Source of the DNA: Flagellimonas allohymeniacidonis
GTDB taxonomy: Bacteria; Bacteroidota; Bacteroidia; Flavobacteriales; Flavobacteriaceae
DNA length: 64,000 nt
Direction of reading: 5' to 3'
Assembly: GCF_004296335.1 (NCBI RefSeq)
Contig: NZ_SGIU01000002.1
Coordinates: 757,882-821,881 of the forward strand
A model generated the notes under the pieces. It had not been told where the DNA came from. It saw nothing but the letters and a program-made list of their open reading frames with translations, and did no database searches. The position numbers were made by a program, and so were the translations under genes. Below are positions 48,016 to 58,569 of the stretch, one piece after another; within the stretch, counting starts at the first letter, position 1, and each line of letters opens with the position of its first letter.

Positions 48016-48774
48016 CTAATCCAGTTCCCTGACCCAAATATTGCGATAACTCACCCTGCTGTTATCCCTATGGTCTTGTAACTCTAAGGGTGCTTTCCCA
48101 TGGGGTTCGTATTTGGGCCAACCGATGTACTCCGAAGGGCCTTCAATCTCAAAATGGTCTTGAATCAAAACCCCGTTGTGCAAAACGGTAATGGTGGCCG
48201 GCTCTTCAAGGTTTCCTCCTTTACTAAATTTCGGAGCATGGAAAATGATATCATAGCTGTTCCATTCCCCCGAAGGCACGGAGGCCATAGCCATCGGAAC
48301 CGATTGTTTGTACAAAGACCCGACCTGCCCGTTCACGTAGGTAGAATTATTGTTGTTGTCCAAAACCTGAATTTCATAGCGCTTTTGCATAAATACACCA
48401 CTATTGGCCCTACTCTGCCCTTCTCCTTGGGTTTCGGCTGGAGAGCTCCATTCAATATGAAGTTGAAAACTGCCAAAATTGCGTTTGGTCTGAATGTTTC
48501 CTGTTTTGTCCTTAACGGTCATACTACCATCTTTATTCAAGTGCCATTTCACAGCTGTACTGTCACCACTGCTTATCCATTCATCAAAATCGGACCCGTC
48601 AAAAAGCACCAGGGCATCACTGGGAGGTGCCCCATTTTTCCCTGGCACCACCTTGGGCGGAACAGGTTTATATGTTTCAGTGGCTTCCGGTTTGGTGGGT
48701 TCTCCTTCTTGTGCAAATACACTTGAGGAAAAAACGAGTAGAAAGATCAAAAGAGTTGATTTGTAAAGTTTCAT
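48016..48774 (-). CDS. Secreted DUF1080 (3-keto-disaccharide hydrolase-like) protein
   Basis: A 252-residue exported protein. The signal peptide MKLYKSTLLIFLLVFSSSVFAQ is followed by a concanavalin-like beta-sandwich with DUF1080 motifs: LVLFDGSDFDEWISSGDS, NFGSFQLHIEWSSPAETQ, NSGVFMQKRYEIQVLDN, NSYDIIFHAPKFSKG and the end NSRVSYRNIWVREL. The family has been linked to cleavage of 3-keto-glycosides. The gene is 24 bases downstream of a sugar isomerase/epimerase gene and lies in the block with GMC dehydrogenases, which fits such a role. Substrate is unknown. Confidence 0.85.
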   Translation of the reverse strand: MKLYKSTLLIFLLVFSSSVFAQEGEPTKPEATETYKPVPPKVVPGKNGAPPSDALVLFDGSDFDEWISSGDSTAVKWHLNKDGSMTVKDKTGNIQTKRNFGSFQLHIEWSSPAETQGEGQSRANSGVFMQKRYEIQVLDNNNNSTYVNGQVGSLYKQSVPMAMASVPSGEWNSYDIIFHAPKFSKGGNLEEPATITVLHNGVLIQDHFEIEGPSEYIGWPKYEPHGKAPLELQDHRDNSRVSYRNIWVRELD

Positions 48775-48798
48775 TGTAGTTTTTGATTAGGTTGTCTA

Positions 48799-49851
48799 TT
48801 ATATTCCCAAAATGCGTTTCAATTTGTCTTTGTCCAAATCCCCGCCAGCAAAATCATCAAAGGTCTTGGTCGTTGCCTCAATGATATGATCTTGAATGAA
48901 CTTGGCCCCTTCCCTCGCCCCTTGCTCGGGACTTTTTATGCAACACTCCCATTCCATGACCGCCCAAACATCGCATCCGTATTGGGTAAGTTTTGAAAAA
49001 ATGGTTTTAAAGTCAATTTGGCCATCACCCAAGGAACGATACCTTCCAGCACGATCGCCCCAATCATTATAACCTCCAAAAGCCCCTTTTTTCCCTGTGG
49101 GATTGAATTCAGAATCCTTCACATGAAACGACTTGATGAATTCGTGGTAATGGTCGATATACGTGATATAATCCAATTGCTGTAGTACAAAATGGCTGGG
49201 GTCGTACAGAATATTGACCCTTTTGTGGTTACCGGTTGCCTCTAAAAATCGTTCGAAGGTGTCACCATCATGAAGATCTTCTCCGGGATGGATTTCATAA
49301 CAAACATCAACACCTTCTTTATCAAAATGATCTAGTATGGGCAGCCAACGATTGGCCAATTCCTCAAACCCCATTTCTACCAATCCCGGGGGTCGTTGTG
49401 GCCAGGGATGAGCCGTATGCCATAGCAGTGCCCCAGAAAACGTCGCATGCGCCTTGATTCCCAAACGTCGGCTGGCCGTTGCCGCTTTCTTGACCGTTTC
49501 TATGGCCCATTGGGTTCGCTCTTTGGGTTTGCCCTTAAGGGCATCCGGTGCAAAATTGTCAAACATGATATCATATGCTGGGTGTACCGCAACCAATTGT
49601 CCTTGTAAATGGGTAGACAATTCGGTGATCTCCAACCCGTAGGAATTGATTTTCCCTTTGAGTTCATCACAGTAATCCTGACTTTCGGCCGCTTTGTCCA
49701 AGTCAATTAAAAAAGATTCCCAAGTAGGAATTTGGATTCCCTTATAGCCTAAACTTGAAGCCCATTGGCAAAGACCTTCGAGTGAATTGAAAGGAGGTTC
49801 GCTATCTACAAATTGCGCTAAAAAAACGGCTGGCCCTTTTATTGTTTTCAT
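48799..49851 (-). CDS. Sugar phosphate isomerase/epimerase (TIM-barrel)
   Basis: A 350-residue xylose-isomerase-like TIM barrel without a signal peptide. Divalent-metal ligands are seen as DVCYEIHPGED (Glu, near residue 180), VNILYDPSHF (Asp), IKSFHVKDSEF (His) and AVMEWECC (Glu). Related enzymes epimerise or isomerise sugars or cleave 3-keto-glycosides. The gene is upstream of DUF1080 on the same strand and divergent from a GMC dehydrogenase gene, with 127 bases between them. The cytosolic location suggests it acts after uptake. Confidence 0.88.
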   Translation of the reverse strand: MKTIKGPAVFLAQFVDSEPPFNSLEGLCQWASSLGYKGIQIPTWESFLIDLDKAAESQDYCDELKGKINSYGLEITELSTHLQGQLVAVHPAYDIMFDNFAPDALKGKPKERTQWAIETVKKAATASRRLGIKAHATFSGALLWHTAHPWPQRPPGLVEMGFEELANRWLPILDHFDKEGVDVCYEIHPGEDLHDGDTFERFLEATGNHKRVNILYDPSHFVLQQLDYITYIDHYHEFIKSFHVKDSEFNPTGKKGAFGGYNDWGDRAGRYRSLGDGQIDFKTIFSKLTQYGCDVWAVMEWECCIKSPEQGAREGAKFIQDHIIEATTKTFDDFAGGDLDKDKLKRILGI

Positions 49852-49978
49852 GGTATTGGCTTTTAAGAATTAGTAAATCCCCAACATTTTAGGATTTATC
49901 CCCTATATTTAAAAAATAATGTGAGCGTATTGCTGACTTCTTTATGAGGGGTCATAAATATAGGAATAAGCTCAGAAT

Positions 49979-51697
49979 TTGAACGGTATTATTGTGAACG
50001 AAAATACGGTTTATGATGCCATAGTGGTGGGTACAGGAATCAGTGGAGGATGGGCCGCCAAGGAGCTATGTGAAAATGGGCTCAAAACCTTGGTTTTGGA
50101 TCGTGGTCCCATGGTCAAGCACGTTGAAGATTACAAGACCATGCATGATGATCCGTGGGACTATAAGTTTAAAGGGGAGTTGACCTTAGAAGAAAAAAAG
50201 AAATATCCCGTACAATCTCGTTTGGGATGGGCCCCGCGCGACGATGTCAAACACTTTTTCGTCAACGATTTGGAACACCCCTATCAAGAAACCAAACGTT
50301 TTGATTGGATTCGGGGATACCATGTAGGTGGAAGAAGCCTGACCTGGGGAAGACAAAGTTACCGTTGGAGCGACATCGATTTTGAAGCCAACAAGAAAGA
50401 AGGTATTGGTGTAGACTGGCCTGTCCGATATAAAGACATTGCCCCTTGGTACGACAAGGTAGAATCTTACATCGGTGTAAGCGGGGAAAAATTAGGGCTG
50501 AAACAATTACCAGACGGACAATTTCAACCCCCCATGGAATTGAACTGTGCCGAAAAGGAACTTCAAGCTTCCATGAAGAACGATTTTGACGATGGCCGTT
50601 TATTGACTATTGGCCGGGTCGCCCATATTACTGAAAATACATCCGATATTGAAGGCAGGGGTCCTTGTCAATATCGAAATCGCTGTTGGCGAGGTTGCCC
50701 ATTTGGCGGCTACTTTAGCAGCAATTCTTCCACTCTCCCCGCTGCAGAACGTACTGGAAATATGACCATACGGGCCAATTCCATTGTCCATGAGGTGATA
50801 TATGATGCATCAACCAAAAGGGCAACCGGTGTAAAAGTCATCGATGCCGTGACCCATGAAAAATTTGAATTCAAGGGTAAAATCGTTTTCCTATGTGCAT
50901 CTGCAATGGCTTCTGTGGGTATCTTGCTCCAGTCCAAATCAAAAAGTTTTCCGAACGGAATGGGTAACAACCATGATCAATTGGGCAGAAATCTCATGGA
51001 CCATCACTACAAAGTTGGGGCTACGGCCAAAATTGATGGTCATTTGGACAAGTACTACAAAGGGAGAAGGCCCAATGGCTTTTATATTCCCCGTTTTGTG
51101 AATCTGGACGATACCACCCAAAGGAATAGCTTTTTACGAGGTTTCGGTTATCAGGGGGGTGCCAGTAGAGGCAATTGGAAAGAAATGGTTGCCGAAATGG
51201 GATATGGAAAGAGCCTTAAGGAAAGTATTTTAAAACCCGGTGGTTGGGAAATCGGAATGAGCGGTTTTGGGGAAATGCTACCTCATCCGGATAATCGGGT
51301 AACCTTAAGTACTGATAAAAAAGATTCATGGGATTTGCCCCAGCTAAATTTTGATGCAGAATTCAAATCCAATGAACTCAACATGCGGGAAGCCATTAAA
51401 GAAGAGGCTGTGGCCATCTTCAAAGCTGCAGGCTTCAAAGAAATTACAACATTTGACGAGTCAACAGGCCCCGGGTTGGGCATCCATGAAATGGGAGGTG
51501 CCCGAATGGGGGCCAACCCCAAAACTTCTGTAGTGAACCGTAATAATCAACTACATGACGTTCCAAACGTTTATGTGACAGATGGTGCCTTTATGACCTC
51601 TGCTAGCTGCGTAAATCCGTCATTGACCTATATGGCCTTTACGGCCCGAGCAGCCAATCATGCCTCAAAACAATTTCATCAACATAAATTTTCTTGA
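49979..51697 (+). CDS. GMC-family FAD sugar dehydrogenase with [3Fe-4S] motif (copy 1)
   Basis: A 572-residue oxidoreductase of the glucose-methanol-choline family. The FAD site starts VYDAIVVGTGISGGWAAKEL, with RGYHVGGRSLTWGRQSYRW typical of the family. Cys230, Cys236 and Cys240 (CQYRNRCWRGCPFGG) give the CX5CX3C pattern that holds a [3Fe-4S] cluster in FAD glucose dehydrogenase alpha subunits. The catalytic His lies in GIHEMGGARMG and the second active-site pair in SASCVNPSLTYMA. The start is TTG (MNGIIVNEN). A small-subunit gene is not adjacent, unlike copy 2. An ASCH-domain gene follows after 6 bases. Confidence 0.9.
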   Translation: MNGIIVNENTVYDAIVVGTGISGGWAAKELCENGLKTLVLDRGPMVKHVEDYKTMHDDPWDYKFKGELTLEEKKKYPVQSRLGWAPRDDVKHFFVNDLEHPYQETKRFDWIRGYHVGGRSLTWGRQSYRWSDIDFEANKKEGIGVDWPVRYKDIAPWYDKVESYIGVSGEKLGLKQLPDGQFQPPMELNCAEKELQASMKNDFDDGRLLTIGRVAHITENTSDIEGRGPCQYRNRCWRGCPFGGYFSSNSSTLPAAERTGNMTIRANSIVHEVIYDASTKRATGVKVIDAVTHEKFEFKGKIVFLCASAMASVGILLQSKSKSFPNGMGNNHDQLGRNLMDHHYKVGATAKIDGHLDKYYKGRRPNGFYIPRFVNLDDTTQRNSFLRGFGYQGGASRGNWKEMVAEMGYGKSLKESILKPGGWEIGMSGFGEMLPHPDNRVTLSTDKKDSWDLPQLNFDAEFKSNELNMREAIKEEAVAIFKAAGFKEITTFDESTGPGLGIHEMGGARMGANPKTSVVNRNNQLHDVPNVYVTDGAFMTSASCVNPSLTYMAFTARAANHASKQFHQHKFS

Positions 51698-51703
51698 TCA
51701 TTC

Positions 51704-52171
51704 ATGGAAAATGCTTCTGCCCGAAATCTTTGGGGCGACTTTTTAGACGCCCACCTTGAGTTTGCCTCTGAAGACGCACCCAAGGTTATCCATTTTTGCG
51801 ATAATGAGAAAGACGCCAATGTCTGTGCCAATTTGGTAAGTAAAGACGTCAAGCGTGCTACCTCGCACTCGCTATTAGGCCTACAATTGCGAAATGAGAA
51901 ACTTCCTCAACTTGGGGATTTTTCCGTTGTGACCGATTGGTCCGGCAACGCCAAATGTATTATCAGGACCACCGGGGTTCGCCTGATTCCCTATTTTGCC
52001 ATTCGCGAGGAGCAAGCGCGTTTGGAAGGAGAAGGCGACAAGAGTCTTGAATATTGGCGAAAAGTCCATTGGGACTACTATACCCGGGAACTTGCCGAGT
52101 TTGGTAAGGCTCCAAAAGAAAGTATGATTGTTGTCTTTGAGCAATTTGAAAAGCTGTTCACAAAAAAATGA
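51704..52171 (+). CDS. ASCH domain protein
   Basis: A 155-residue cytosolic protein with the ASCH fold, an RNA-binding/amidohydrolase-like beta-barrel related to PUA domains. Visible parts are LWGDFLDAHLEFASEDAP, KRATSHSLLGLQLRNEKLP (the family's Lys/Arg-containing segment), AKCIIRTTGVRLIPYFAI and DYYTRELAEFGKAPKESM. It follows the first GMC gene by 6 bases, which looks like an operon, although a functional link to sugar oxidation is not obvious. Members of the family have been proposed to act on modified nucleosides. Confidence 0.85.
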   Translation: MENASARNLWGDFLDAHLEFASEDAPKVIHFCDNEKDANVCANLVSKDVKRATSHSLLGLQLRNEKLPQLGDFSVVTDWSGNAKCIIRTTGVRLIPYFAIREEQARLEGEGDKSLEYWRKVHWDYYTRELAEFGKAPKESMIVVFEQFEKLFTKK

Positions 52172-52193
52172 CCGCAGTTTTGCGGCCATTTAT
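52163..52193. terminator. Intrinsic terminator between convergent ASCH and Gfo/Idh genes
   Basis: AATG-A-CCGCA pairs with TGCGG-C-CATT with one mismatch and a short loop. On the minus strand it is followed by seven T, so it is a good terminator for the Gfo/Idh/MocA operon (stop 52212). On the plus strand the T run is weaker. Confidence 0.7.
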
Positions 52194-52211
52194 TGTACTT
52201 ATTGGGGCTAT

Positions 52212-53348
52212 TTAATCGAGATTCACCCAAACATTCCCTTGTTTGTGTGAAGCCACAGTGCCCTCTATGAAATTCAATCCGCGAACACCATCCAGCATGG
52301 TTGGGAATTCGCCATCATTATATTCCTGTCCCCGAATTGCTTTGGAAACCCCTAAATAAATGTTGGCCATGGCATCAAAAATTCCTTCAGGGTGTCCTGG
52401 TGGTAATTTTGTGCCATCCAAAGATAATTTGGAATTATAGGCATGCCCTGGTTTTAAAACTTGAAGTGGTTCGGTATCACTTAATTTGTAGAGGTAATTC
52501 GGATTTTCCTGCTCCCATTTGAACGCTCCTTTTTCTCCATAAATGGCAATGGACAGTCCATTTTCTTCCCCAGTGGCCACCTGACTGCTCCGGATGACCC
52601 CTTTTACATGTTTATCCATCCTAACCAGCACCGTTCCATCTACATCCATCACATTGTCATCATAGAGGTAATTGAAATCACATAGAAGGGATTGGATGCG
52701 CAATCCGGTGGTAAACTCAATCATATTGAAGGCATGAACTCCTATATCTCCCATGCACGAACTGATTCCTGCTTTTTTAGGATCCAAGCGCCATACCGAC
52801 GATCGTTTTTCCTTATCGTGGATTATAGCATTGATCCATCCTTGGTAATATTGCGCGTCGACCTTATGAATTTTCCCGAGCTCCCCTTCCTTTATCCTTT
52901 CACGCATTTCACGTACCATGGGATAGCCGGTATAGGTATGGGTAACCGCAAAGACCTTCTTGGCCTTTGTCAAGGTGTCCTGCAAAATTTTGGCCTCCTC
53001 GTAGGTGGTGGTCAGGGGTTTTTCACAGATTACATGAAACCCATTTTCCAAGAGTTTTTTGGCCATGGGAAAATGGAGAAAGTTCGGCGTAAGGACCGAG
53101 CAAACTTGAATTCGTTCTTCTTCGGGCAATTTTAGCTCCCCTTCAATCAGAGCATCTAAATCTCCATATATTCGGTTCGTGGGAATGTCAATCTCCTCCG
53201 CAAATTTTAGGCTTTCTTCATATTGTGCATTGAAAACCCCTCCGGTGATTTGATAGTTGTCATTTATAAAAGAGGCTACGCGGTGCAATACCCCAATAAG
53301 GGAGTCTCCACCACCACCAAGAATTCCAAGTCGAATTTTTTTTGGCAT
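52212..53348 (-). CDS. Gfo/Idh/MocA family oxidoreductase
   Basis: A 378-residue NAD(P)-dependent dehydrogenase. The N-terminal Rossmann fold starts RLGILGGGGDSLIGVLHRV; the lysine motif HVICEKPLTTTYEEA contains the EKP of the family. The C-terminal domain has AGISSCMGDIGVHAFNMIEF with the catalytic-like Asp and His. There is no signal peptide, so it is cytosolic. In 3-keto-sugar pathways such enzymes reduce the keto-sugar back. An MFS permease gene lies 4 bases upstream on the same strand. Confidence 0.9.
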   Translation of the reverse strand: MPKKIRLGILGGGGDSLIGVLHRVASFINDNYQITGGVFNAQYEESLKFAEEIDIPTNRIYGDLDALIEGELKLPEEERIQVCSVLTPNFLHFPMAKKLLENGFHVICEKPLTTTYEEAKILQDTLTKAKKVFAVTHTYTGYPMVREMRERIKEGELGKIHKVDAQYYQGWINAIIHDKEKRSSVWRLDPKKAGISSCMGDIGVHAFNMIEFTTGLRIQSLLCDFNYLYDDNVMDVDGTVLVRMDKHVKGVIRSSQVATGEENGLSIAIYGEKGAFKWEQENPNYLYKLSDTEPLQVLKPGHAYNSKLSLDGTKLPPGHPEGIFDAMANIYLGVSKAIRGQEYNDGEFPTMLDGVRGLNFIEGTVASHKQGNVWVNLD

Positions 53349-53352
53349 AGGT

Positions 53353-54579
53353 CTATTCTTTGTATTCGATTTTTTCGTTTTTGAACAGTAGTAGGAAAAG
53401 TACCAAGACTACAGCAGCAAAAATAGCAGGGAATGTCCAAATGTTCGCCCATTCATGCACATTTTCGGAAACTAAATAGGAATCTGTGATTTTTCCAGCT
53501 ACCCAAAAACCAATAAGCATACCTACTCCGTAGGTAGCCAAAGTAATCAATCCCTGGGCCGCACTCTTATATCTTTCTCCTGCTTTGGAATCTGTATAAA
53601 TCTGACCGGATACAAAAAAGAAGTCGTAGCAGATGCCATGCAAAGCGATTCCAATAATCAACATAAATGCAAGTTCTCCGGCATCTCCGTATGCGAACAG
53701 CAAGTACCTTATCGTCCAAGCCAACATACCTGCCAATATGGTCATTTTAAAACCAAAACGTTTGAAGAAAAATGGCAACAAAAGCATAAAGAGCACTTCG
53801 GAAATTTGTCCAATTGTCATTTTGCCTGCTGGGTTGGCCACTCCAATTTCTCCCAAAAACTGCCCTGCGTGTTGATAGTAGAACGCCAATGGGATACATA
53901 TCAAAATAGAGGCAATGAAAAAGATCAAGAAGTTTCTGTTGTTGAGCAATTTCAAAGCTTCAAGGCCCAAAATATCGGAGATGGCCACCTTTTCATCTTT
54001 GGAGGTTTTAGGTGGTGTTTTGGGTAAGGTAAAACTGAACAGTCCCAAAAGGGCCGAAGCACCTGCCACCATCAAAAAGGTGTTTTTCAATAATCCTTCC
54101 TTTACCCCTACTTCGCTATCCCAGCCAAAATAACTGATGGCCAGACCGGCAATGATCCATCCTATCGTGCCGAATACGCGTACAAAGGCAAACTCCTTCG
54201 ATGGGTCTTTCATTTGATTAAAAGCCACTGAATTCACTAAGGCCAAGGTGGGCATATAAATGATCATATAACCCAAAACAAAGGGATAGAATGCTCCAAA
54301 ATCGGTTGCATTGGCCAGTTGATACATTAAAATGGCGCCTATTAAGTGGGATACCCCCAAAATACGTTCGGCATTAAAATACCGGTCTGCAATCAATCCA
54401 ATAATAAATGGAGCAATGATTGCTCCCCAAGATTGTGTAGAATATGCCATGGCAATATCGCTGCCTGAAGCATTCAAGGTATTTGGCAAATAAATGCCCA
54501 TGGTCACAAACCATCCTCCCCAAATAAAGAACTCAAGAAACATCATAAAGGATAGCTGAAACTTCGTTGTAGTATTCAT
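53353..54579 (-). CDS. MFS permease, NupG-like nucleoside/sugar:H+ symporter family
   Basis: A 408-residue inner-membrane protein with about 12 helices. The start MFLEFFIWGGWFVTMGIYLP and the later GAIIAPFIIGLIADRYFNAERILG match the nucleoside:H+ symporter group of the MFS. In sugar-use loci members of this group often import the sugar product, and the placement between Gfo/Idh/MocA (4 bases) and DinB genes supports that. A substrate cannot be named from sequence. Confidence 0.85.
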   Translation of the reverse strand: MNTTTKFQLSFMMFLEFFIWGGWFVTMGIYLPNTLNASGSDIAMAYSTQSWGAIIAPFIIGLIADRYFNAERILGVSHLIGAILMYQLANATDFGAFYPFVLGYMIIYMPTLALVNSVAFNQMKDPSKEFAFVRVFGTIGWIIAGLAISYFGWDSEVGVKEGLLKNTFLMVAGASALLGLFSFTLPKTPPKTSKDEKVAISDILGLEALKLLNNRNFLIFFIASILICIPLAFYYQHAGQFLGEIGVANPAGKMTIGQISEVLFMLLLPFFFKRFGFKMTILAGMLAWTIRYLLFAYGDAGELAFMLIIGIALHGICYDFFFVSGQIYTDSKAGERYKSAAQGLITLATYGVGMLIGFWVAGKITDSYLVSENVHEWANIWTFPAIFAAVVLVLFLLLFKNEKIEYKE

Positions 54580-54603
54580 GTATTTGATTTAGTTGTTAGT
54601 TGA

Positions 54604-55047
54604 TTATCGTTTGTAAAAAATATAATCCAAGGGTTGGGGTTCACCCCCTGAATCCCTAAAATCCATCAAGATTTGACCTCTGTGGTGTGTAGAATGATTG
54701 ACAATGTGAAAAAGGATGTCCTTCAATTCATTGGCATGGGTTCTGCCCTCACTGTTCTCATAGTCTATGCGTTTTGCAAAATCATCGGTGTTCGTGATAA
54801 TTTCAAAAGACGTCCTTTGGTTTTCATAATGGATATCGTTCCATTGTTCCAATTCATGAAGTTGCCAGACCTTAAACTCAGAAGGCTTTCCTAAAATTCT
54901 ATGGTTCCAAACATGGTGGGAATTTAAGATATGGCTAAAAAGCTTGCTGCACTTTTCGGGTACTTGATCCAAAGAAGTGCATTGCTCTATCAATTTTTTA
55001 TTGCAATAGAAGTTATAGTCAAAAAGCTGATGTAAAAATCCTTTCAT
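54604..55047 (-). CDS. DinB family protein
   Basis: A 147-residue four-helix-bundle protein of the DinB/YfiT group, a thiol-transferase-like fold that binds a metal through three His residues. Candidate ligands lie in LFSHILNSHHVWNHRIL and LFHIVNHSTHHRGQIL, and HRGQI is the family signature. Members are metal-dependent hydrolases or bacillithiol-type transferases, and no specific substrate is known. The gene lies 24 bases after the MFS gene's start region and 11 bases before the TIM-barrel lipoprotein gene, on the same strand. Confidence 0.85.
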   Translation of the reverse strand: MKGFLHQLFDYNFYCNKKLIEQCTSLDQVPEKCSKLFSHILNSHHVWNHRILGKPSEFKVWQLHELEQWNDIHYENQRTSFEIITNTDDFAKRIDYENSEGRTHANELKDILFHIVNHSTHHRGQILMDFRDSGGEPQPLDYIFYKR

Positions 55048-55058
55048 ATCCAGATCTT

Positions 55059-56057
55059 TTATTCAGCTGAAAGTAATTTTTCCAAAAGGGCCTTGGTAGC
55101 TTGGATTCCCTCTTCCTCCCCTAGTTCACTCCCTTCGTATTCCACACCGATATATCCCGAATATCCAGCGTCCTTCACAATTTTAATCATTCGGGCATAG
55201 TCCGTATTGATTTCGTTTCCGTTTTCATCAAAATCGTGGGACTTGGCACTTACCGCCTTCGCGTAGGGCATTAATTCCGTAATCCCCTTGTACCTATCAT
55301 ATTCTTCAATACATTCTGATTCAAAGTATGATCCATCCTCCCGTTGTACACAGAAATTTCCAAAATCGGGCAGCGTTCCGCAATTGGGAAGGTTTACCCG
55401 TTTGATCACTTCTACTAACATGGCCGCGTTGGAAGAAAGACCTCCATGGTTTTCGACGATTACATTGATGTTTTTATCCTTCGCGTAGTTGGATAGTTGG
55501 GTAAGACCATCCACCGAGGCTTCAGTCCATTCATCTGCCACTTTGCTCCCCATAAGATTGACCCTTACGGAATGGCACCCTAAAGCAGCAGCAGCATCTA
55601 CCCATTTAAAATGACTTTCCACAGCGGCTTTTCGTTCAGTTTCATCCGCCGCAGACAAATCTCCTTCATGGTCTATCATGATGATGAGATTCGTCAACCC
55701 ATGCTTTTGGCTTTCCGCTAAGGATTTTTGGACAAAATTATCCATAGCTTCCTTGGAAAAATCAGCAGACTTCAATTCATCTTCATACAGTTGGCTCACA
55801 TATTCCAACCCGGAGAATCCCCACTCTTTTGCTTTGGCGGCAAATTGGTAAGGGTCCAAGCCTTCATCTTGGATCATTCTATGTATGGACCATTGTGCCA
55901 GTGAAAGCTTGAAGTCTTCAGACATCATTTCAGTCTCATTTTCTTCGGTTGCCGTTTCTGTGGTTTGTTCTTTCTTCTGTTTGCATGCTTGAAAGCCAAG
56001 TATGGAGATTGTAATAAGGGTTAGAAGGCCGTTGCGGGTAAAATATCTTCTCTTCAT
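55059..56057 (-). CDS. Probable lipoprotein sugar isomerase/epimerase (TIM barrel)
   Basis: A 332-residue TIM-barrel protein with an export signal (LLTLITISILGFQAC) ending in a Cys at about residue 25 and a Lys/Glu/Thr-rich spacer (KQKKEQTTETATEENETEM). It is thus likely lipid-anchored outside the cytoplasm. The barrel follows with KLSLAQWSIHRMIQDEG, the metal-binding INVIVENHGG (Glu), GTLPDFGNF (Asp), AVSAKSHDFDENG (His) and IGVEYEGSELG (Glu), all four ligand positions of hydroxypyruvate isomerase-like enzymes. It is first in the minus-strand TIM-DinB-MFS-Gfo operon and divergent from a GMC dehydrogenase. Confidence 0.83.
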   Translation of the reverse strand: MKRRYFTRNGLLTLITISILGFQACKQKKEQTTETATEENETEMMSEDFKLSLAQWSIHRMIQDEGLDPYQFAAKAKEWGFSGLEYVSQLYEDELKSADFSKEAMDNFVQKSLAESQKHGLTNLIIMIDHEGDLSAADETERKAAVESHFKWVDAAAALGCHSVRVNLMGSKVADEWTEASVDGLTQLSNYAKDKNINVIVENHGGLSSNAAMLVEVIKRVNLPNCGTLPDFGNFCVQREDGSYFESECIEEYDRYKGITELMPYAKAVSAKSHDFDENGNEINTDYARMIKIVKDAGYSGYIGVEYEGSELGEEEGIQATKALLEKLLSAE

Positions 56058-56194
56058 AAGGTTGGATCATTGAATCTTAAATAGAATAGAAAAACTATAA
56101 CGTTATAGTACGAAATTCTCAATAAATGCTGGGTTTAAATGTAGAAAATTAATTTAATAATTAATACATTTAGCAGATAAACAATACGTAATAC

Positions 56195-57913
56195 ATGAGC
56201 AAGTTTTATTACAACGAGGAGCAAGAATCTTATGATGCCATTGTAGTAGGAACAGGCATCAGTGGTGGCTGGGCTGCCAAGGAACTTTGCGAAAAAGGTC
56301 TTAAGACCTTGGTTCTCGAGCGTGGAAGAATGGTAAAGCACCGTGAGGACTACCCGACTGCAAATATGGATCCCTGGGATTTTCCCCATAATGGAGAGCC
56401 TACAACTGAGGACCTGAAAAAACAAGAAAAACAGGGTAGAACGGGTTATACTGTTAAAGCCGCTTCAAAACATTGGTTTGTTAATGATTTGGAGCATCCT
56501 TACAATGAAGTAAAACGTTTCGATTGGATGCGTGGATATCATGTGGGGGGACGTTCGATTATGTGGGGTCGCCATAGTTATCGTTGGAGTGAAATAGATT
56601 TTGCCGCCAATGGCAAAGAAGGTGTAGGTGTGGATTGGCCTGTTCGATATAAAGATATTGCGCCTTGGTATGATAAGGTTGAATCTTACATAGGAGTTTC
56701 GGGAGAGCTTTTGGGACTTCCTCAATTACCTGATGGTAAGTTTGAGCCCATGATGGAGCTGAACTGCGTTGAAGACCATGTTCGGGGTAAGGTTGCGGAG
56801 CACTTTGATGGTAGGGTAATCACAGCCGGTAGAGTCGCACATATAAATAGTGATAAACGTTTTGAAGGTGACGGTAGGGTACGTTGCCAGTACAGAAACC
56901 GATGTATCCGTGGCTGTCCTTTTGGGGCCTACTTCAGTAGTGTTTCCTCAACATTGCCTGCCGCCGAAAAAACGGGCAATATGACCCTACGACCTGATTC
57001 AATAGTACATGAGATAATGTATGACCCTGATACCAAAAAAGCTACAGGTGTCAAGGTAATTGATAGGGTTACCAAAGAACCTTATGAGTTTAAGGCCAAG
57101 GTAATCTTCCTTTGTGCTTCAGCTTTGGCCTCTACTTCTATTTTGATGCAATCCAAATCCGATCGTTTCGAGAATGGTCTTGGCAACGACAGTGGAGAGT
57201 TGGGCCATAATATCATGGATCATCATTTTTGGGTAGGTGCCCGAGGTAAGATGGATGGTTATGATGACAAATATTACCAAGGACGAAAACCCAATGGCAT
57301 TTACATCCCTAGATTTAGAAATTTAGGTGGAGCCAGCGATATGAAAGATTTTACGAGGGGCTACGGTTACCAAGGTGGAGCCTCAAGAGGGGATTACGAT
57401 GATTTGGTCGCTGAAGCTTCTTATGGCAAAGAGTTTAAAGAAGGGGCTCTGAAGCCGGGAGGCTGGATGATGAACATGTTGGCCTTCGGGGAGATTCTTC
57501 CTTATCACGACAACAAAATGACCCTTGATTACGAAAAACTGGACCAATGGGGCTTACCTACGGTCACTTTTGATGCTGAGATTCGCCAAAACGAATTGAA
57601 CATGCGTAAGGACATGATGGACCAAGCGGCACAAATGTTGGAAAAATCAGGAGCTCGGGATATTGAACCCTACGATTTACCTTATGCGTTGGGCCTTGGT
57701 ATACACGAAATGGGGACCGCCCGCATGGGACGCGATCCAAAAACTTCTGTTGTAAACGGATTTAACCAGGTGCATGCCTGTAAAAATGTTTATGTTACAG
57801 ACGGAGCTTTCATGACCTCGGCCAGTTGTGTCAATCCGTCCTTGACCTATATGGCTTTTACGGCCAGAGCGGCAGACCATGCGGTGAAAGAACTTAAAAA
57901 TGGAAACATCTAA
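56195..57913 (+). CDS. GMC-family FAD sugar dehydrogenase with [3Fe-4S] motif (copy 2)
   Basis: A 572-residue dehydrogenase, exactly as long as the copy at 49979 and clearly its paralogue. The FAD site is SYDAIVVGTGISGGWAAKEL, with RGYHVGGRSIMWGRHSYRW. The [3Fe-4S] motif is Cys231, Cys237 and Cys241 (CQYRNRCIRGCPFGA). The catalytic part has LGIHEMGTARMG and SASCVNPSLTYMA. The next gene, a subunit-3 partner, shares the last base of this stop codon, which marks this copy as the complete dehydrogenase. Substrate: probably a glycoside, oxidised at C3 (inference from the family and neighbours). Confidence 0.9.
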   Translation: MSKFYYNEEQESYDAIVVGTGISGGWAAKELCEKGLKTLVLERGRMVKHREDYPTANMDPWDFPHNGEPTTEDLKKQEKQGRTGYTVKAASKHWFVNDLEHPYNEVKRFDWMRGYHVGGRSIMWGRHSYRWSEIDFAANGKEGVGVDWPVRYKDIAPWYDKVESYIGVSGELLGLPQLPDGKFEPMMELNCVEDHVRGKVAEHFDGRVITAGRVAHINSDKRFEGDGRVRCQYRNRCIRGCPFGAYFSSVSSTLPAAEKTGNMTLRPDSIVHEIMYDPDTKKATGVKVIDRVTKEPYEFKAKVIFLCASALASTSILMQSKSDRFENGLGNDSGELGHNIMDHHFWVGARGKMDGYDDKYYQGRKPNGIYIPRFRNLGGASDMKDFTRGYGYQGGASRGDYDDLVAEASYGKEFKEGALKPGGWMMNMLAFGEILPYHDNKMTLDYEKLDQWGLPTVTFDAEIRQNELNMRKDMMDQAAQMLEKSGARDIEPYDLPYALGLGIHEMGTARMGRDPKTSVVNGFNQVHACKNVYVTDGAFMTSASCVNPSLTYMAFTARAADHAVKELKNGNI

Positions 57914-58569
57914 TGGAAAGAAGAAAAGCACTTAAAAATATGGGACTGGCCTTCGGCTATACGGTGGCAGCCCCTACGTTGATAAGCTTGGTACAAAGCT
58001 GTAGTACTAAAAAAGTATTGGATTGGACCCCAGATTTCTTTTCCAAGGATGAAGGGACCGTGATTCACACCCTTGTGGATATGATTCTCCCCAAGACAGA
58101 TACTCCTTCAGCGACTGAGGTGAATGTTCATGTCTTCATTGATCAATTTGCGAAAGAGGTGCTTCCTGAAGAGCATCAAAACTTTTTACGATTGGGTATG
58201 GGCAAATTTTTTGACAAGGCTCTTGCCGATTCCCAAAAAGAATCCCTTGCTGAGTTGAAAGAGGAAGATTTAGATCCATTGTTGGCCACTTATTTGAAGA
58301 AAAGAACAAAAGATGTGGAAGAAGCCCATGAAAAAGCCATAGAGGAATACTTTATGGGGATTGAGCAAAACGGCAGTGCAGTGTTGGATGACGAAATTGC
58401 GCTGGTTAGCTTTGCCCATTCTTTGCGGGACATCTCTATATGGTCCTACAAAAATTCAGAATATGTTGGCGAAGAAGTATTGGCTTATTTGCCTATTCCA
58501 GGGCAGTACATAGCCTGTGATGATGTTCAGACACTTACCCAGGGTAGAGCGTGGTCTCCTGAAAGATAA
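57913..58569 (+). CDS. Gluconate 2-dehydrogenase subunit 3 family protein
   Basis: A 218-residue partner subunit for GMC sugar dehydrogenases. The N-terminus carries a twin-arginine-like ERRKALKNMGLAFGYTV and a hydrophobic stretch with a Cys at residue 30 (LVQSC), so the folded dehydrogenase may be co-exported by Tat. The domain follows with VIHTLVDMILPKTDTPSATEV, HVFIDQFAKEVLP and SFAHSLRDISIWSY. It overlaps the upstream GMC stop by one base, so the two are translated together. In this family it is the small subunit needed for dehydrogenase export and electron transfer. Confidence 0.9.
   Translation: MERRKALKNMGLAFGYTVAAPTLISLVQSCSTKKVLDWTPDFFSKDEGTVIHTLVDMILPKTDTPSATEVNVHVFIDQFAKEVLPEEHQNFLRLGMGKFFDKALADSQKESLAELKEEDLDPLLATYLKKRTKDVEEAHEKAIEEYFMGIEQNGSAVLDDEIALVSFAHSLRDISIWSYKNSEYVGEEVLAYLPIPGQYIACDDVQTLTQGRAWSPER

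Follow-up and report, generated by a model that had tools for sequence, protein, structure and literature searches.

A gene block of Flagellimonas allohymeniacidonis that probably encodes a non-hydrolytic route of glycoside breakdown

Introduction

Glycosides can be taken apart without a hydrolase, and such routes are represented in Agrobacterium, Bacteroides and Caulobacter. Here we analyse a block of ten genes in a 64,000-nucleotide stretch of the Flagellimonas allohymeniacidonis genome (contig NZ_SGIU01000002.1, positions 757,882 to 821,881 of the forward strand), termed the window, and compare it with these systems. The accessible part of the work on Agrobacterium tumefaciens describes a GlycDH/AtOGE/AtHYD/Gfo operon for oxidation, elimination, hydration and reduction, in which the Gfo enzyme is given the reduction step on preliminary evidence (PMC10628242). 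In Bacteroides thetaiotaomicron the operon BT2156-BT2160 has been linked to fitness on disaccharides and to the conversion of glucosinolates, as far as the available text of the two reports goes (PMC12385236, PMC11501099). For Caulobacter crescentus, a joint action on lactose is proposed for LacABC and a DUF1080 protein, both with fitness defects, and a lactose dehydrogenase of Pedobacter has an important part in the use of lactose, of salicin and of further glycosides, according to the accessible sections of the source (PMC9007349). Moreover, AA3 enzymes of Zobellia are given, in the available portion of another study, with identities of 53-58% to glycoside oxidoreductases that have been tested (PMC6950322). 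We found no account of the Flavobacteriaceae block itself in the literature searched, mostly without subscription journals.

An initial annotation of the window had proposed that the block oxidises a glycoside outside the cell at C3, cleaves it without a classical glycoside hydrolase, and imports and reduces the product. At the level of sequence, homology to tested enzymes and linkage of the genes beyond the family and the phylum lend support to this outline. We conclude that the block forms a genuine functional cluster, and that it very probably encodes a non-hydrolytic glycoside route of oxidation, elimination, hydration and reduction.

Results

In the scheme that we propose, GMC2 (P0009), carried over the inner membrane with a twin-arginine subunit 3 (P0010), would oxidise a glycoside at its C3 position in the periplasm. 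As a second version of this enzyme, perhaps of other specificity, GMC1 (P0003) would rely on the same partner. Next, the secreted DUF1080 protein (P0001) would split the 3-keto-glycoside by beta-elimination into an aglycone or second sugar and 2-hydroxy-3-keto-glucal, and the latter (or 3-keto-glucose) would be imported by a Nuc_H-type permease (P0006). Inside the cell, the hydratase candidate P0002, termed HYD, would turn 2-hydroxy-3-keto-glucal into 3-keto-glucose, which the Gfo/Idh/MocA enzyme (P0005) would convert to glucose. We place the first steps in the periplasm because the partner is of Tat type and the DUF1080 protein is secreted, and the last two in the cytoplasm because signal peptides are missing. 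Every reaction of the scheme, its compartments and order, the substrate class and the electron acceptor are what we infer; the substrates are probably small beta-glycosides.

The firmest assignment of the block is that of HYD as a putative 2-hydroxy-3-keto-glucal hydratase. HYD is a TIM barrel encoded on the minus strand (48799..49851; PF01261, 134.9 bits). It matches the structure 8ro4, which carries the molecule name 2-hydroxy-3-keto-glucal hydratase, with 543.8 bits over residues 1-350, of which 226 are identical (226/350, 64.6%). Going by this name, we read 8ro4 as AtHYD of A. tumefaciens. E186, D217, H243, E300 and E302 are common to HYD and 8ro4, and we take E186/D217/H243/E300 to be the metal-binding set. 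By eye HYD has no signal peptide, and should thus work in the cytoplasm. In the accessible part of its description, AtHYD hydrates 2-hydroxy-3-keto-glucal, on preliminary evidence, and is inactive on 3-keto-phlorizin, a 3-keto-glycoside (PMC10628242). HYD should therefore act after cleavage.

The cleavage step is proposed to fall to P0001 (48016..48774, minus strand), a member of the DUF1080/3-keto-disaccharide hydrolase family (PF06439, 130.8 bits; cut-off 26.8) that has a signal peptide by eye and that, judged from its modelled fold, may be a periplasmic 3-keto-glycoside eliminase (lyase). Its nearest solved relative, 4qhz (E 4.3e-71), is labelled only as a putative glycosyl hydrolase. We compared folds using an AlphaFold2 model built from 36 sequences (predicted local distance difference test, pLDDT, 80.4; predicted template modelling score, pTM, 0.76). 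The model matches 9fbe, an eliminase/hydratase with bound 2-hydroxy-3-keto-glucal, at Z 19.3 (2.8 Å, 182 aligned residues), BT2157 (3osd) at Z 19.1 (2.4 Å, 181 aligned) and the hydratases 8v31 and 8tda at Z 19.4 and 19.0. Altogether 14 structures, each also matched by the sequence profile, lie at Z 19.0-26.1, and the first row outside the DUF1080 family follows at Z 13.2. E134, Q136, D139, Y155 and H235 are invariant (36/36 sequences), and the 8tda alignment shows the E.QVLD and QDH motifs again. By its sequence, P0001 may be a lyase, a hydratase or both.

In a rival reading, which we hold to be doubtful, the DUF1080 protein would act as a second hydratase or as a simple hydrolase, and elimination would fall to P0008, the second TIM barrel of the block, or to enzymes encoded elsewhere, such as the products of other DUF1080 genes. 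Some solved DUF1080 proteins (8v31, 8tda) are indeed labelled 3-keto-2-hydroxy-glucal hydratase, and the genome holds four further PF06439 matches, two of them above the cut-off. Two DUF1080 genes are found in 52 of 62 near relatives and one in the window; these near loci are the best 80 of 586 relatives in a search with HYD, that is the nearest ones, less 18 dropped for short flanks, and gene presence in them was scored by tblastn at E 1e-8. C-glycoside eliminases are also among the fold neighbours of P0008 (55059..56057, minus strand; PF01261, 95.9 bits), which is lipid-anchored by eye and whose Cys C25 is invariant in 32 sequences. The nearest solved relative of P0008 is 4ovx (Z 40.4), which bears no function name, followed at Z 24-29 by isomerases, C-glycoside deglycosidases and epimerases; DgpB-DgpC (7exz) is matched at Z 26.0 (3.2 Å, 261 aligned). 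E202, D231, E306 and Ser270 of P0008 are invariant in the 32 sequences, and Ser270 aligns, in the sequence alignment only, with the His of DgpC1. E-D-H-E is the ligand set of metal-dependent xylose-isomerase-like enzymes, and with Ser270 in place of the DgpC1 His, P0008 may not be a standard metal-dependent member. This substitution, together with scores for DgpB-C/CGD (Z 24.6-26.0) that are tied with that of 3wqo (26.2), a tagatose-3-epimerase-like protein, led us to reject P0008 as a proven C-glycoside eliminase. Hydration, moreover, is already covered by HYD. We prefer the assignment of elimination to the DUF1080 protein.

The initial annotation had let both TIM barrels act on 3-keto-glycosides. 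This needs correcting: P0002 matches a hydratase, and P0008 has no demonstrated link to 3-keto-glycosides. The homology and structure search that it had suggested was run; for the DUF1080 protein it returned the fold of the characterised 3-keto-glycoside group, for P0008 the tie with an epimerase-like protein. In two plasmid records with relatives of P0008, one has no annotated block genes nearby and the other has GMC and Gfo genes about 7-9 kb away.

In most near relatives a further DUF1080 gene lies between HYD and the window-type DUF1080 gene (e.g., L042:11064-11825). This first DUF1080 gene, of a type missing from the window, is present in 59/62 loci, and only 24 bases are found at the corresponding place of the window (48774-48799). 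The window has either lost it or never had it. That it merely moved elsewhere was rejected, since one relative's copy gave no match (E 1e-5) to any of the other four PF06439 loci in the genome.

For the oxidation step, GMC2 (56195..57913, plus strand; PF05199/PF00732, GMC_oxred_N/C) is proposed from sequence as the large subunit of a glycoside 3-dehydrogenase, with P0010 (57913..58569, plus strand; gluconate 2-dehydrogenase subunit-3 family, Gluconate_2-dh3, PF13618, 85.4 bits) as the proposed export partner. Among solved structures, the large subunit of fructose dehydrogenase comes nearest to GMC2 (E about 1e-36). GMC1 (49979..51697, plus strand; PF05199/PF00732), a paralogue of GMC2, is 65% identical to GMC2. 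The His of GIHEMG and the Asn of CVNPSLT, which are expected at these GMC-family motifs, are kept in both enzymes (H504 and N547 in GMC2). The start of GMC1 is uncertain: it is a TTG at 49979, and in the relatives L055 and L089 the gene begins a few residues further on. P0010 begins with a twin-arginine sequence, ERRKALK, followed by a lipobox-like Cys30, and TatC is present in the genome. In the whole genome of 3.57 Mb, P0010 is the only PF13618 match, and a search with GMC2 gives two matches at E <= 0.01, GMC2 itself and GMC1. GMC1 has no subunit-3 gene of its own; with the sole subunit 3 and both GMC genes in the block, the two enzymes may share one export partner. That all three genes lie within 10.6 kb also argues for a cluster beyond chance. 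Two GMC1-like genes stand in tandem in some relatives (L055:6405-9824, L073:6427-9849), showing that the number of oxidases varies at this place. Pfam finds no cytochrome c among the ten proteins of the block.

P0005 (52212..53348, minus strand; PF01408/PF22725/PF02894), which has no signal peptide by eye, is the candidate for a cytoplasmic 3-keto-glucose reductase. Its best resemblance in NCBIfam is to levoglucosan dehydrogenase, at 89 bits against a cut-off of 650. A role as a BT2158-type glycoside 3-dehydrogenase was rejected, since BT_2158_fam scores 31.3 bits against a cut-off of 750. Could these genes serve inositol or keto-acid/aldonate metabolism, as a GMC/gluconate dehydrogenase and IolE/IolG-like enzymes, rather than glycosides? 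We rejected this as very improbable: HYD weakly resembles IolE (NCBIfam, 59.7 bits; cut-off 290) and P0005 IolG (48.1 bits; cut-off 355), but both scores are far below their cut-offs, HYD matches 8ro4 at 544 bits, and a DUF1080 gene recurs near HYD.

P0006 (53353..54579, minus strand), an MFS permease of the nucleoside-H+-symporter type (Nuc_H_symport; PF03825, 395.5 bits), is proposed from its family as importer of the cleaved keto-sugar. At the same position an MFS_1 permease (by Pfam on L024) replaces it in L024:6920-8158 and L044:6931-8157, and both permeases are kept in other relatives such as L010.

The closest relatives bear the names Allomuricauda/Flagellimonas (Flavobacteriaceae), with HYD identities of up to 96%. 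All 62 near loci have HYD, ASCH, Gfo and YicC, the last being a control neighbour. The TIM lipoprotein is present in 60 of them, GMC2 in 59, DinB in 58, subunit 3 in 56, the window-type DUF1080 gene in 55, the Nuc_H permease in 54 and GMC1 in 45; NrdA (17/62, often past the fetched flank), a second MFS permease (16/62) and LacZ (3/62) are rarer. Either MFS gene is found in 58 loci and neither in four. The transport gene varies and is rarely missing, and GMC1 may be absent, with ASCH still in place.

A far survey covered 296 Bacteroidota genomes, 88 with a HYD match at E 1e-30 and 57 at >=62% identity. Excluding the window's genome, we took 58 stretches of up to 20 kb from 56 genomes, two of which gave two each; some stretches end at contig ends, and one set of open reading frames (ORFs) was used (ATG starts only, at least 80 amino acids). 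By clustering, Gfo occurs in 49 stretches, Nuc_H in 36, DUF1080 in 31, GMC in 29 and subunit 3 in 27. Two further TIM-barrel-like clusters, recognised by eye, occur in 25 and 21 stretches. The TIM lipoprotein (5/58), ASCH (4/58) and DinB (3/58) are scarce, and YicC is found in the same four stretches as ASCH. In six loci of another Bacteroidota group (L107, L109, L111, L113-L115), a single run holds subunit 3, GMC, Gfo, HYD and cytochrome c, and continues with a second Gfo-like gene (by eye with a twin-arginine start), followed by DUF1080 and Nuc_H and then by two TIM-barrel-like proteins.

The genes are also linked on Gamma- and Alphaproteobacterial plasmids, of which we examined three of 355 HYD-match records (H1, H4, H8) and one of 193 GMC-match records (H16). 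In a Pseudoalteromonas plasmid (Gammaproteobacterial) a single run comprises Gfo, HYD, MFS, DUF1080, GMC, subunit 3 and a TIM barrel. A Croceicoccus plasmid has Gfo, HYD, subunit 3 and GMC together, with MFS on the opposite strand and a GH3 (glycoside hydrolase family 3) gene upstream, and a Catenovulum plasmid has TIM, a heme protein, DUF1080, GMC and subunit 3. That the linkage persists across phyla while the gene order differs strongly indicates a shared function for Gfo, HYD, DUF1080, GMC, subunit 3 and a permease. The synteny check suggested with the initial annotation has thus been run, and its outcome, a core set linked in other Bacteroidota and on plasmids in other orders, makes a chance neighbourhood unlikely. 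That slowly changing local gene order alone keeps these genes together is very improbable, for although housekeeping YicC is as constant as the block genes (62/62) and shares the same four of 58 stretches with ASCH, the core genes also stand together in further families and phyla, where order and orientation differ, in stretches where yicC was not found.

Several observations weigh against the proposed route. P0001 is only 19-26% identical to characterised members of its family, and P0005 shares only 29-41% identity with most of the Gfo genes that lie close to HYD in other Bacteroidota (44 of 50). By clustering, GMC is missing from 29/58 far stretches and DUF1080 from 27/58, so the linkage is not universal. 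The Croceicoccus stretch has no annotated DUF1080, the Catenovulum stretch is without HYD or Gfo, and a Rhizobium plasmid has HYD and Gfo together with ABC transporters and no GMC or DUF1080 nearby. A small cytochrome c lies near HYD in 25/58 stretches (24/25 with CxxCH) and not in the block; a single representative query of this type, which is a weak test, found no match in the genome. In the accessible parts of the respective studies, deletion of BT2157 or BT2158 left growth on raffinose-family sugars unchanged (PMC11501099), and none of ten Pedobacter DUF1080 genes had a lactose phenotype (PMC9007349).

All ten ORFs of the block are open within 48016-58569, and the best Pfam family of each of the ten proteins scores above its curated cut-off, in agreement with the families and positions given in the initial annotation. 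Direct observations are the genes and the families they belong to, the conservation of key residues, the matches in fold and the co-conservation. Gene spacing fits four short transcription units: HYD-DUF1080 on the minus strand (gap of 24 bases), GMC1-ASCH on the plus strand (6 bases), TIM lipoprotein-DinB-Nuc_H-Gfo on the minus strand (11, 24 and 4 bases) and GMC2-subunit 3 on the plus strand (1-base overlap).

The initial annotation had also found it striking that the block holds neither a glycoside hydrolase nor a SusC/SusD pair. Pfam indeed finds no SusC/SusD among the ten proteins. The absence does not stand out, since the eight SusD matches of the genome sit elsewhere, and a LacZ-type glycoside hydrolase of family 2 (GH2) lies inside the block in 3/62 relatives. 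This beta-galactosidase gene stands between ASCH and Gfo in Zobellia (L072:4160-7372, L078:4206-7418) and Maribacter (L073:2638-5577), the family being assigned by Pfam on L072, and by eye a similar ORF of 1070 residues has the same position in L089. The presence of GH2 at this place is a hint that the substrates may include beta-galactosides.

Two genes, encoding an ASCH-domain protein (P0004; 51704..52171, plus strand; PF04266, 72.3 bits) and a DinB-family protein (P0007; 54604..55047, minus strand; PF05163, 57.6 bits), had been regarded as mere interruptions. This is contradicted by the near relatives, in which both are part of the gene order conserved at the locus, as long-term residents. 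We surveyed 120 Flavobacteriaceae genomes, one per genus, and found HYD in 56 and not in 64. Close ASCH matches (>=55% identity) occur in 17/120 genomes and close DinB matches (>=53%) in the same 17, always on the HYD contig and within about 11 kb; none of the 64 genomes without HYD has them. Distant ASCH (36-46%) is found in three genomes without HYD, and distant DinB (37-48%) in eleven genomes, some without HYD. A working role in the pathway, for example as a damage-control or regulatory pair for the reactive 3-keto-sugars and 2-hydroxy-3-keto-glucal in the cell, seems unlikely to us; 39 of the 56 HYD genomes lack both genes, which counts against it. Inherited gene order may explain their constancy, since the 17 genomes may be one clade and YicC is equally constant. 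Slow change of gene order, unlikely for the core genes, is thus the default explanation for ASCH and DinB. In-frame stops interrupt 4/17 ASCH matches of this survey and three ASCH matches of the 80 near loci, one of which is short. In L043 and L080 the ASCH gene carries such stops and yet is still in place, as if decaying in some lineages.

The divergent region between HYD and GMC1 (49852..49978, 127 bases) has promoter-like elements both ways, one TATATTTA directed towards HYD (49962-49955) and another towards GMC1 (49904-49911). We take these TATATTTA elements to resemble Bacteroidetes -7 boxes. The word TAAATATA/TATATTTA is found in 78/78 orthologous regions. The element towards HYD is kept in 76 and that towards GMC1 in 74 of these, and in 71 two facing elements lie 42-51 bases apart. 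Both elements are also kept in 14 of 17 loci without GMC1. The second one was thus rejected as a promoter of GMC1's own that is lost with GMC1; it may serve ASCH instead. Between the P0008 operon and GMC2 (56058..56194, 137 bases), where promoter-like elements again point in both directions, the word TAAATGTA/TACATTTA is found in 59/61 orthologous regions. About 50 bases upstream of the P0008 operon are strongly conserved in 61 loci, which perhaps exceeds the need of two promoters and makes a regulator site possible. A search for an operator shared by the two sets of divergent regions gave none, with no word of at least 10 bases in over a fifth of both. They share only AT-rich 8-base words, such as ATATTTAA in 51/78 and 34/61.

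Discussion

With HYD in 56/120 genera sampled, the hydrolase-free glycoside route of Agrobacterium, Bacteroides and Caulobacter would be a common chromosomal locus in Flavobacteriaceae, lying beside yicC in 62/62 near relatives. The route is hidden from ordinary annotation because its genes are named isomerase, oxidoreductase or DUF. The locus raises three targets: the sugar used by each GMC enzyme, the route of the electrons without a local cytochrome c, and the role of ASCH and DinB.

Compared with known systems, the block shares with the B. thetaiotaomicron operon its DUF1080 enzyme, as BT2157 matches the P0001 model at Z 19.1, and we take BT2156 to be a TIM barrel. The glycoside 3-dehydrogenase BT2158, in contrast, belongs to another family (BT_2158_fam), and in the block GMC and subunit 3 would do that step. 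The components of LacABC are presumably a GMC-type dehydrogenase, a subunit 3 and a cytochrome c; the GMC and subunit-3 genes stand side by side in the block as well, whereas no cytochrome c component was found there, and HYD and Gfo are added. A secreted DUF1080 protein is also common to the block and C. crescentus, where, in the accessible text, LacABC is proposed to act with CCNA_01705 on lactose via 3'-ketolactose (PMC9007349). The levoglucosan operon of Bacillus smithii follows an analogous four-step logic, a likeness by description in the available part of the source (PMC10628242). In Zobellia, of the same bacterial family, AA3 'FAD-GO' enzymes have been proposed from sequence as GMC glycoside oxidoreductases, according to the portion accessible, which deals with these enzymes and not with a gene block (PMC6950322).

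The A. tumefaciens operon is another close system. As far as its accessible description goes, it shares with the block a dehydrogenase (GlycDH) expressed with a Tat-signal partner (from Rhizobium GIN611), a TIM-barrel hydratase and, by family, a Gfo reductase, and it takes the four steps that are proposed for the block (PMC10628242). For the dehydrogenase pair, the block has a GMC2 gene that overlaps the subunit-3 gene, the ERRKALK start and a TatC in the genome. Elimination is the task of AtOGE in A. tumefaciens, and its candidate in the block is the DUF1080 protein. No sequence or fold match of P0008 bears the name AtOGE, which does not speak against an enzyme of that type. Beyond that operon the block has the Nuc_H permease, a second GMC, the lipoprotein TIM barrel, ASCH and DinB. 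Thus, the pathway itself is already known from Agrobacterium (PMC10628242), and the block would be a version of it with two extra, unexplained genes.

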